Source of the DNA: Lentisphaeria bacterium
GTDB lineage: Bacteria; Verrucomicrobiota; Lentisphaeria; Victivallales; Victivallaceae
DNA: 64,000 bases
Direction of reading: 5' to 3'
Assembly: GCA_017508385.1 (NCBI GenBank)
Contig: JAFVZB010000072.1
Location: 1 to 64,000, forward strand
This document shows positions 32,673 through 36,068 of the stretch, one piece after another. The translations under genes were made by a program, and so were the position numbers. The notes under the pieces are model-generated. The model saw nothing but the letters and a program-made list of their open reading frames with translations, did no database searches and was not told where the DNA came from. Positions within the stretch are counted from its first letter, which is position 1; each line of letters starts with the position of its first letter.

Positions 32673-35192
32673 TTACTTTACTCCATATTTGGTTGCCAGT
32701 TTGTCAAGTGCAGAAATCTGTTTGGGAGAGAGAGTTCTGCCGTCATCAAACTGTTTTTTTACTGATTGGAAAAACTTTTTGTCATCGAATGAAAATTTGC
32801 CTCTTTTGACCGGTTCTTCCCACTTTTCGACCTTGCAGAGAGCCGCAATAAGCTCACTTGCTCCGGCGGAGGCAGCTCCGCTGTTTTCCTGCTGAGCCGC
32901 ATTTTCCTCTGCAGGAGCAGGAGCCACATTCAAAATGGCAAAAACATTTTCTGCATTATCAAGTTGGCTCTGATATTTGTTCGCCATCTTGACCAGAGCT
33001 GCGGTCTGACGGTCACTGAGCAGTTTGCCTGCGAGAGCCTGTTTTTTCAGAGAGTCGAAGAACTTTTTGTCATCGTAAGTCACTCTGCCCCGCTTGACGG
33101 GCTCATCCCACTTGACCTTGTCGAAAGCGGCGAAGAGTCCGGCGTAGTCGATCTCTTTAGCCTGAGCGGCTTCGACCTCCTGCACGGCGGCTTTTTCCCG
33201 GAGTTTGGCTGCCTCATTCTCGATCGCAGAGCGCAGATTGTCGGGAAGAGCAAGCAAAGTCTGATCTGAAAAACTGTCAAAATACCTTGCCGCCAGATTG
33301 AGCAGGGCACTGTACTGTTTGGCACTTATTTTTCCGTCGTTGGAAAATTTGATGCGCACCGAGTTGACAAAATCTCCGTCGTTGAACGTGCGCCTGCCGA
33401 CCTTGCGGGCAGGAGCGTAGGTGACGTTGTCGAACAGAGCAAGGATAGCTGCGGCATCACTGCTTTCAGGAGCATCGGCATCTTTTGCTTCCCTGAGCCA
33501 CAGGATAAATTTGTCATAAAACTCCTGCATCATGCTGACCCACGGCTGTTTGCCCTCTTCGACCATGTCGAGTTTCTCTTCCATCTGGGCGGTGAAGCCG
33601 ATATCGAAGAGTTCGGGAAGTCTGCCGACGAGGAAATCGTTGACCTTTATTCCGAGCTCGGTGGGAACAAGTCTGCCCTGATCCCGCTTGACGTACTCTC
33701 TATCCTGAATGGTGCGCATGATGGCGGCGTAGGTTGAGGGACGTCCTATTCCGTTCTCTTCGAGAGCCTTGATGAGACTTGCCTCGTTGAATCTCGGCGG
33801 AGGCTCAGTGAATTTCTGCGTGCCGTCGAATTTGGTTATCACCAGCGGCATTCCGCAGGAAAGCTGTGCGAGCACCGGAGACTCATCTTTATCTTTGCTC
33901 TCTTTTTCTGCATACTCGTAAAGTTTGGTGAAACCGGGGAAGGTTACTACTGAACCGACCGACCTGAAGGTGTATTCGCAATTGTCACTGCCCTGAATGC
34001 GGCTGTCAACAGTGGTCTGGTCGATTTTGCAGCATGACATCTGACTTGCGACGAAACGCTTCCAGATAAGCGTGTAGAGCTTGAGCTGCTGCGGGTCGAG
34101 GTACGGAGCTACCGACTCCGGAGTGCGGCGCACGTCGGTCGGACGGATAGCTTCGTGAGCCTCCTGAGCGGCGGCCTTGTTTTTGTAGGCGTTGAATTTT
34201 TCAGGAGCGAAAGCCTCACCGTAAGTCTCACGGATGAAATCCCTTGCGGCAAACTGTGCCTCTTTGGCGATGGTCACTGAGTCGGTACGCATGTAGGTGA
34301 TGAGACCGACTGCGCCCTTGTTGCCGAGTTCCACACCTTCGTAGAGCTGCTGGGCACAGCGCATGGTTCCGGTGGCGGACATCCTCAAATTGGAGCTTGC
34401 CGCCTGCTGGAGCGTACTGGTGGTGAACGGAGGAGCTGCAAAACGGCGTCTTTCCTGACGGTTTATCTCATCAACAGCCGGAGAAGAACCCTGCAAAACC
34501 GCTTTTTTCAGAGCCTCGGCATCGGTTTGATTGGTGATTTTGAAGTCTTTGCCGTCGATTTTGAAGAGACGGGCATGGAAAATTCCCGGTTTCCCGGCAT
34601 CGAATTCGACTCCGAAGTTCCAGTATTCCTCAGGCTTGAAAGCCTCTATTTCCCGCTCTCTCTCGACCACGAGCCTCAGAGCGGCTGACTGCACACGTCC
34701 GGCACTGCTGCCCTTTTCGAGCTGACGCCAGAGCAGCGGACTTGTTTTGTATCCCACGATGCGGTCGAGGATACGTCTTGCCTGCTGGGCATCGACCAGA
34801 TCGGGGTCGATATCGCCGCGGTTGGCGATGGCGTTCTCGATGGCGGTGCGGGTGATCTCATGGAAACTCACCCGGTAGAACGGTGACTTGGTTGATTTTT
34901 TCAAAACATCTTTCAAGTGCCACGCAATAGCCTCTCCCTCACGGTCAGGGTCGGGAGCGAGATAGATTTCATCGGCAGTTTTCGCCGCATCTTTCAGCCG
35001 TTTGACAATGCTTCTGCTTTTGGGTGAGTCAACATACTGCGGAGCAAAATCATGTTCGATATCAACTCCGAGCTCATGTTCGGGCAGGTTTCTGATGTGA
35101 CCCATCGAAGCGATGATGGTGTAGTCCTTGCCGAGCATCTTCCCGATGGTATTCGCCTTGGTCGGAGACTCGACGATCAATAATCTGTTCAT
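32673..35192 (-). CDS. topA: DNA topoisomerase I with unusual C-terminal repeats
   Basis: An 839-residue type IA topoisomerase relaxing negative supercoils. It has a Toprim domain (LIVESPTKANTIGKML and PDPDREGEA at 81-89), the active-site Tyr300 (ITYMRTDS) and GRPSTYA at 484-490. In place of the usual Cys4 zinc ribbons the C-terminus carries three copies of a 55-60-residue domain at about 583-638, 684-742 and 780-839. Each has an acidic-aromatic start (F-D-x-V), a basic-gly turn (VKRG or VGRR), F/Y-D-D and a closing L-S-x-K/R-Q-x-x-A-L helix. It has its own promoter and heads an operon. Confidence 0.93.
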   Translation of the reverse strand: MNRLLIVESPTKANTIGKMLGKDYTIIASMGHIRNLPEHELGVDIEHDFAPQYVDSPKSRSIVKRLKDAAKTADEIYLAPDPDREGEAIAWHLKDVLKKSTKSPFYRVSFHEITRTAIENAIANRGDIDPDLVDAQQARRILDRIVGYKTSPLLWRQLEKGSSAGRVQSAALRLVVEREREIEAFKPEEYWNFGVEFDAGKPGIFHARLFKIDGKDFKITNQTDAEALKKAVLQGSSPAVDEINRQERRRFAAPPFTTSTLQQAASSNLRMSATGTMRCAQQLYEGVELGNKGAVGLITYMRTDSVTIAKEAQFAARDFIRETYGEAFAPEKFNAYKNKAAAQEAHEAIRPTDVRRTPESVAPYLDPQQLKLYTLIWKRFVASQMSCCKIDQTTVDSRIQGSDNCEYTFRSVGSVVTFPGFTKLYEYAEKESKDKDESPVLAQLSCGMPLVITKFDGTQKFTEPPPRFNEASLIKALEENGIGRPSTYAAIMRTIQDREYVKRDQGRLVPTELGIKVNDFLVGRLPELFDIGFTAQMEEKLDMVEEGKQPWVSMMQEFYDKFILWLREAKDADAPESSDAAAILALFDNVTYAPARKVGRRTFNDGDFVNSVRIKFSNDGKISAKQYSALLNLAARYFDSFSDQTLLALPDNLRSAIENEAAKLREKAAVQEVEAAQAKEIDYAGLFAAFDKVKWDEPVKRGRVTYDDKKFFDSLKKQALAGKLLSDRQTAALVKMANKYQSQLDNAENVFAILNVAPAPAEENAAQQENSGAASAGASELIAALCKVEKWEEPVKRGKFSFDDKKFFQSVKKQFDDGRTLSPKQISALDKLATKYGVK

Positions 35193-35230
35193 TTGCCACT
35201 ATCCGTAAATTAAGAAATTCAAAGCTCTTT

Positions 35231-35253
35231 CGCGCACGCGTACGCACGCACGC
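35231..35253. other. Alternating purine-pyrimidine tract in the topA leader
   Basis: CGCGCACGCGTACGCACGCA followed by CGC is 23 nt of unbroken pyrimidine-purine alternation rich in CG and CA steps, the pattern that favours Z-DNA under negative supercoiling. It lies 11 nt downstream of the topA -10 box, in the initially transcribed region. Confidence 0.75.
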
Positions 35254-35263
35254 TTACAATTCT

Positions 35264-35292
35264 ACAATATCAGAAAAAATAACTTTTGTCAA
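35264..35292 (-). promoter_or_regulatory. topA promoter
   Basis: On the minus strand TTGACA (35287-35292), 17-nt spacer and TATTGT (35264-35269). It lies between the lipoprotein gene and topA; no strong terminator precedes it, so some read-through from upstream is possible. Confidence 0.75.
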
Positions 35293-35309: not shown

Positions 35310-36068
35310 TTACAACACCGGAGGATTGAACTCATTGTCATCGACCGGAACATCCAGCTTGTAGAAGATGACCTTCTGAGTCTGTTCCTCATCACCGGTA
35401 ACAGAGACCGACTCATCGGGAATCCTTATTCCCTCATAAAGAGTGTAGCTTTTCATGCGGCTGTCGGTGTTGAGGGTTCCCGAGGGAAGCCGGAACGAGG
35501 TCTTCATGCGTGAAGTGAGATAAGTCGAGGCATTGATGTATATCTCAAAGGAGTTTTTCTGATTGTTTGAGCAGTGCAGCTTGAAAAACTCTCCGTCAGA
35601 AGTTTTGCACCGGAATATCTCAACATTTTTGAAAACATCTTTATATCTGGTCGCCGGAGTGTTGAGTTTGGTCAGAGTCTTTATCATCACCATGTGCTGA
35701 GGCGGGATAGGAACAACTTTGTTTGCGCTGTAATCGATACTCCAGGCTGAATTGCCGTTGATGATGTATCCTGAAATCGCTTTGCCGTCTTCCATGACGG
35801 TACATTTGATTTTATCAGGACGCTTGTATTTCAGTTCGATGATTTTGTTTGACGTTCCACCGAAGATACCGCTGTCGGATATATTCTGACGCATGATGTA
35901 GCTCGAAGCCTTTGAAAACTTGCCTTCGGGGTCGGTCGCCGCATCTTTGCGGATTTGCAGTTCGTCAACTGATATCTCTGATGGCAGGAGCGTTTCATCG
36001 GTGCTTGCGCATCCGGAGAGCACGAGCACTGCTGCGAGTGTTGAAAACAGAGTAAAAAACTTGTTCAT
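35310..36068 (-). CDS. Lipoprotein, LolA/outer-membrane-sorting-like fold
   Basis: A 252-residue lipoprotein with signal peptide and lipobox LSGC (Cys20). The mature part is beta-rich with the pattern KYKRPDKIKCTVMEDGKAIS...YIINGNSAWSI, similar to LolA- or LolB-like lipid-binding folds, here quoted in two parts. It lies 21 nt after a HAD phosphatase gene. Its function is not known; a periplasmic role in lipid or lipoprotein handling is a guess from the fold-like pattern. Confidence 0.65.
   Translation of the reverse strand: MNKFFTLFSTLAAVLVLSGCASTDETLLPSEISVDELQIRKDAATDPEGKFSKASSYIMRQNISDSGIFGGTSNKIIELKYKRPDKIKCTVMEDGKAISGYIINGNSAWSIDYSANKVVPIPPQHMVMIKTLTKLNTPATRYKDVFKNVEIFRCKTSDGEFFKLHCSNNQKNSFEIYINASTYLTSRMKTSFRLPSGTLNTDSRMKSYTLYEGIRIPDESVSVTGDEEQTQKVIFYKLDVPVDDNEFNPPVL

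Follow-up and report, generated by a model that had tools for sequence, protein, structure and literature searches.

The topoisomerase I gene (topA) of the Lentisphaeria bacterium studied here, and of much of its genus, carries just past its predicted promoter an uninterrupted alternation of pyrimidines and purines, and on sequence comparison the conserved property is this alternation and not the sequence that composes it. Retention of the zigzag while its letters change suggests a role for DNA shape at this site in the control of topoisomerase I. The tract probably senses or buffers negative supercoiling, and we give about even weight to the reading that it is a supercoiling sensor, a DNA-structural (B-Z) element maintained by selection where transcription of topA is predicted to begin. 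That it constitutes a natural bacterial Z-DNA switch, selected as a physical property instead of a sequence and letting topA sense supercoiling in cis, is proposed more tentatively. The use of Z-DNA for regulation in bacteria is an old open question, and the topA tract offers a directly testable case: the element sits on the supercoil-relaxing gene itself, it is retained across much of the genus with changing letters, and subclades devoid of it provide a natural control.

In the window, that is, the whole 64-kb stretch of DNA analysed, topA occupies 32673..35192 on the minus strand and encodes a type I DNA topoisomerase of 839 aa with Toprim and Topoisom_bac domains. Its identity was confirmed by a TIGR01051 score of 698.5 bits, against a cut-off of 456.4, and the closest named records for the start of the protein are from uncultured Lentisphaerae (70, 62 and 64% over ~200 residues). 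Past residue 555 TopA has no Pfam match and no zinc finger match, and its C-terminus (window 32673-33470) is made of about three repeats of ~58 residues (..KWDEPVKRGRVTYDDKKFFDSLKKQ..). The gene upstream of topA (35310..36068, minus strand) codes for a 252-aa predicted lipoprotein-like protein with no NCBIfam or Pfam match, and proteins resembling it (..SEISVDELQ.. / ..SDITLAELEK..) neighbour topA in several other genomes of the genus, where they are frequently divergent from it.

A promoter-pattern scan found a single promoter-like site between this gene and topA, TTGACA-17-TATTGT on the minus strand (10/12 matches), with the -35 box at 35287..35292 and the -10 box at 35264..35269. As 1.2 such sites are expected in shuffles, the predicted promoter rests on conservation in relatives, where TTGACA or TTGCAA is also found before topA. 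The transcription start inferred from the -10 position, ~7 nt past the box (35255..35259), gives a predicted 5' leader, from start to ATG, of 35193..35257, all on the minus strand. The sequence-only reading had claimed a 23-nt unbroken alternation 11 nt downstream of the topA -10 box, and direct reading bears out both figures: the tract spans 35231..35253, reads CGCGCACGCGTACGCACGCACGC on the plus strand and GCGTGCGTGCGTACGCGTGCGCG in the sense of topA (minus strand, 35253-35231), has zero breaks and begins 11 nt beyond the end of the -10 box. Were transcription to start ~7 nt past the -10 box, the tract would begin at about +4/+5, and for that predicted start its proposed location within the first transcribed bases of topA is supported. 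TA occurs just once among its 11 dinucleotide units, the tract being the CG- and CA/TG-rich alternation characteristic of Z-DNA-forming sequence.

Runs of this length are rare. The topA tract is the longest alternating run of the window, the next three having 13 nt. In the whole assembly (2.48 Mb, 94 contigs) there are 10 distinct tracts of at least 17 nt, and the sole run longer than that of topA, 29 nt on contig C42, lies inside an open reading frame. Eight of the nine other runs fall within open reading frames by crude ORF calling, while the ninth, with 17 nt (G000:C80:22588-22604; L163 988-1005), is located in the DNA that separates nifJ from a ROK-like repressor gene of divergent orientation; the topA tract is thus the longest run outside an open reading frame among those examined. 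In the topA neighbourhoods of 29 genomes of the genus (583 kb), 17 runs of at least 14 nt were counted, with 15 of them in the topA leaders of 14 genomes (three were scored as coding by the crude ORF caller) and two elsewhere. Of 8566 windows of 150 nt drawn at random from these neighbourhoods, 0.13% contained a run of at least 13 nt.

The start of topA could be recovered from 29 of 34 genus genomes, which are assemblies, many of them incomplete, with start codons, promoters and anchors all predicted, and the 150 nt before the start were taken as the leader. Runs of at least 11, 13 and 14 nt were present in 20, 16 and 14 of the 29 leaders, respectively, with tract lengths of 30 nt in G026, 24 in G005, 23 in G008, 21 in G030, 19 in G006 and G033, 18 in G021, 17 in G020 and 15 in each of five others. 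In most genus members the alternation sits just past the -10 box with its letters changed, and in all 21 tract leaders the distance from the -10 region to its first base is 2-22 nt (anchors set by eye). Subclades share no tract sequence and their letters differ freely, with a partial motif, TGTGTACG, in one part of the genus (group A) and AT-rich portions, AT being a weak Z-former, in some tracts (G008, G026). Absence of the tract from close relatives, an outcome named beforehand as refuting the idea of a supercoiling-sensitive switch, was not observed: G015, which at 83% protein identity is the nearest relative, has runs of 15 nt and 11 nt whose bases differ from those of the window tract.

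The expectation that the tract would be retained in relatives despite base changes is therefore sustained for the 16 of 29 genus leaders with runs of at least 13 nt, and fails for 8 of the 29, where the longest run has at most 9 nt, and for all 24 genomes of other genera. One further genus leader reaches 10 nt. No run of at least 13 nt was seen in the 24 topA leaders from other genera of the same order or in the 80 from other phyla, and none of either set attains 12 nt. Its lack in these 8 genus members means that the element is dispensable. On the topA tree they fall into two groups (G010, G012, G013, G022, G024 and G027; G019 and G032), and since carriers adjoin both, G006 beside the first and G000 with G015 beside the second, loss in two subclades appears likelier than repeated gain, with a low support of deep nodes (0.36-0.65).

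The way in which tract bases change also points to the alternation. In seven sister pairs, the ratio of transitions to transversions was 39.5:21 inside tracts versus 103.5:141 outside (Fisher p 0.0015, from rounded counts). When all pairs within groups A-E were compared, the corresponding values inside tracts were 225:100, 42.5:13, 9:1.5, 4.5:3 and 19:3, the pairs being non-independent and the G006 row of group D badly aligned; outside the tracts of the same five groups substitutions were mostly transversions. The sister pair G005/G026 showed no transition bias inside its tract (7.5:7), and G001/G020 was even on very small counts (1.5:1.5).

The propensity of these leaders to adopt the Z form was scored with the B-Z dinucleotide energies given in PMC3024258, using a single-run model of a 5-kb domain without Z-Z junctions. 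This model ignores competition and junction twist, and its sigma values are relative. The earlier claim of a Z-prone tract agrees with the scoring, in which the tract has the lowest critical sigma of the window, -0.0449 compared with -0.0593 for the next site, and is its most Z-prone site under this simplified model. Compared with 1136 background windows, 15 of 29 genus leaders lie below the 1% quantile and 19 below the 5% quantile, as against none of 24 leaders from other genera at either quantile (G054 yielded no candidate). Leaders with runs of at least 11 nt have predicted flip points between -0.045 and -0.069. Unconstrained superhelicity in living cells is usually quoted as ~-0.03, and the flip point predicted by the model, being more negative than this, counts against a Z-DNA switch.

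In the mechanism envisaged, an excess of local negative superhelicity, whether global or generated behind polymerases as they leave the promoter, would cause the ~22 bp of the tract to flip to left-handed Z-DNA, absorbing about 4 turns (22 bp x 0.18 turn per bp), and the output of topA would thereby follow the same torsional stress that topoisomerase I relieves. The response could take the form of activation, if a B-Z junction beside the region melted at the start raised output, or of relief of torsional stress by the tract; it could also be a brake, with Z-DNA in the tract blocking polymerase. The classic experiments of Peck and Wang on E. coli are reported to show Z-DNA-forming repeats stalling RNA polymerase. 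Stalling of polymerases by Z-DNA, described in PMC5295012, would have the wrong sign for simple supercoiling homeostasis. We lean slightly towards activation or torsional relief, given that homeostasis needs topA to go up with negative supercoiling and that the B-Z junction would adjoin the start site. A fall of topA promoter activity on relaxation is documented in PMC4770202, and according to PMC9825172 topA of Synechocystis also falls on relaxation.

Among the alternatives, the one that survives best, and which we still consider unlikely, is that the tract acts as RNA, forming a 5' stem-loop of the topA mRNA that would influence message stability or translation, with the alternation as a by-product. 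GC-rich alternating sequence folds readily as RNA, and for this reason the excess was compared at the DNA and RNA levels, with anchors for the folding tests set by eye. Against shuffles of full composition the 21 tract leaders do fold stably (mean z -1.63), and clear hairpins are present in single leaders, namely in G029 (dinucleotide z -6.59), G001, G023 and G021. With dinucleotide shuffles, however, the tract leaders (n=21) had a mean z of -0.93, the 8 without tract one of -0.44 and 150 control leaders one of -0.29, and values below -2 were no more frequent than in controls (2/29 topA leaders versus 7.3% of 150). When shuffling preserved the R/Y alternation of the first 50 nt, a small extra stability remained on average (mean z -0.65, sem 0.30, n=21), but it was absent from the seven longest tracts (at least 19 nt), where z averaged ~+0.1. 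As regards a cruciform, the perfect palindrome of the window tract has only 8 bp (GCGTACGC) and the longer hairpin requires G-U pairs.

The relation between hairpin and alternation was addressed by keeping the hairpin pairs and randomising their orientation, after which the probability of a run as long as that observed was below 0.05 for 20 of 21 leaders; as long runs are destroyed in this way, the alternation is not accounted for by the hairpin. Neither conserved structure beyond composition nor an Rfam family, as expected from a structured 5' leader RNA, was found in the topA leaders, with 2/29 having z below -2 and the Rfam search at gathering score returning no family and two chance-level matches. 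The impression of a hairpin conveyed by single leaders (G029, G031, G001) was accordingly mostly rejected after the shuffle and pair-orientation tests. The small excess of RNA stability, together with the failure of hairpins to explain the runs, leaves the alternation as the main conserved property. Regarding individual leaders, that of G029 (L028 / L189) combines a short alternation with two tandem identical hairpins, GTATGC-GAGAAGAA-GCATAC, and that of G024, from a tract-less subclade, has another, distinct stem-loop shortly past the -10 box (L201; GGCCGTCGTCGTCACGGCC).

A further reading, which we consider rather improbable, is that a protein recognising the shape or flexibility of pyrimidine-purine steps, be it a nucleoid protein, topoisomerase I or a local regulator, binds the tract, with no Z form involved. 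Retention of the tract at a single place before a single gene, and the motif shared by part of the genus, would suit a binding site, but a sequence-reading protein would not tolerate the freedom seen between subclades; with no sequence common to them only a shape-reading protein fits, and we know of none. Least probable is chance followed by inheritance, in which an ancestral alternating or microsatellite-like leader, aided by dinucleotide slippage, drifted without selection: the GCGT repeats of the window tract, the lack of tracts in outgroups and two subclades, and a transition excess that is moderate and missing in one sister pair agree with it, whereas the almost run-free state of nearby intergenic DNA, the concentration of 15 of 17 runs of at least 14 nt in topA leaders, the persistence of alternation while tract bases turn over and the general suppression of alternating patterns in prokaryotes, as stated in PMC4060949, all oppose it.

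The structural element favoured here has partial counterparts in known systems. For mycobacterial topoisomerase I, PMC4770202 also proposes a promoter cis element that follows supercoiling with no dedicated regulator; in that system a -35/-10 spacer of sub-optimal length (14-16 nt) acts as the sensor, whereas here it would be an alternating tract past the start, and "Z-DNA" is nowhere mentioned in that paper. The window spacer, with 17 nt, is not of the mycobacterial sub-optimal type. The GC-rich discriminator, as described in PMC8422995, is likewise a start-adjacent sequence whose physical behaviour depends on superhelicity, but it is a stretch of 5-8 nt that separates the -10 box from +1 and works through melting, in contrast to the downstream tract of 23 nt; in the window, TATTGT is followed by the AT-rich AGAATTG and not by a GC-rich discriminator. 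The polymerase-stalling repeats of PMC5295012 resemble the tract in being alternating sequence in transcribed DNA, yet they are model inserts and not a conserved natural leader of topA. Mammalian Z-prone start sites share with it a B-Z susceptibility near starts driven by polymerase-made supercoils, although in mouse, according to PMC3024258, such regions lie mainly upstream of the start and concern thousands of genes, unlike the downstream tract of one bacterial gene. A literature search of open-licence papers found none on a Z-prone topA leader.

Searches across the 34 genus genomes gave matches to topA in 29, gyrB in 34, nifJ in 31 and gyrA in 32. None of 27 gyrA leaders (27 located of 28) has a run of at least 13 nt, and upstream of gyrB such runs exist in 3 of 29 genomes (G033, 21 nt; G016, 15 nt; G023, 14 nt), figures that speak against a general rule for topoisomerase genes. 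In G033 (L284) and G016 (L285) the gyrB runs are ~130 nt upstream of the ATG and upstream of the promoter, an architecture that therefore differs from that of topA; they give a weak hint of a wider link to topology, at a different position. Also near gyrB, G009 has 11 nt ~130 nt upstream, G023 (L301) has its 14 nt in the leader, and G030 (L299) has a 12-nt run apparently in the promoter spacer. For nifJ, runs of at least 13 nt were limited to the close pair G000/G015 (2/26), upstream of the likely nifJ promoter, with none in the other 24 genomes examined. The G015 counterpart (L277 1267-1287) is a 20-nt run between nifJ (pyruvate:ferredoxin oxidoreductase-like) and the divergent ROK-like repressor gene.

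An element common to many genes was mostly rejected: by hand tally, the 34 genomes contain 34 distinct runs of at least 19 nt, 7 of them in topA leaders. Many of the remaining 27 overlap an open reading frame, as called by a crude tool whose output frequently includes frames that overlap on opposite strands, and some precede single genes, which from their protein N-termini we take to be thrS, carB, cysS, fabH and others. No leader other than that of topA recurred across the genus with such runs among the 27 loci examined. A composite pattern (-35, -10 and a run of at least 13 nt) matched 19 distinct sites in the 34 whole genomes, 11 of them topA, compared with 2 for a reversed-pattern control; it does not capture topA leaders whose -35 box or spacing differs (G005, G026, G008, G015). 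Of the eight non-topA sites, five lie within long open frames and one at a tRNA, and the other two precede rpmH and one further gene. The rpmH-like gene (N-terminus KRTFQPSNRRRKRRIGF) of G018 (L228; G018:C129:2650) is preceded by a promoter and then TTTGTGTACGCATGT, resembling some topA leaders of the genus.
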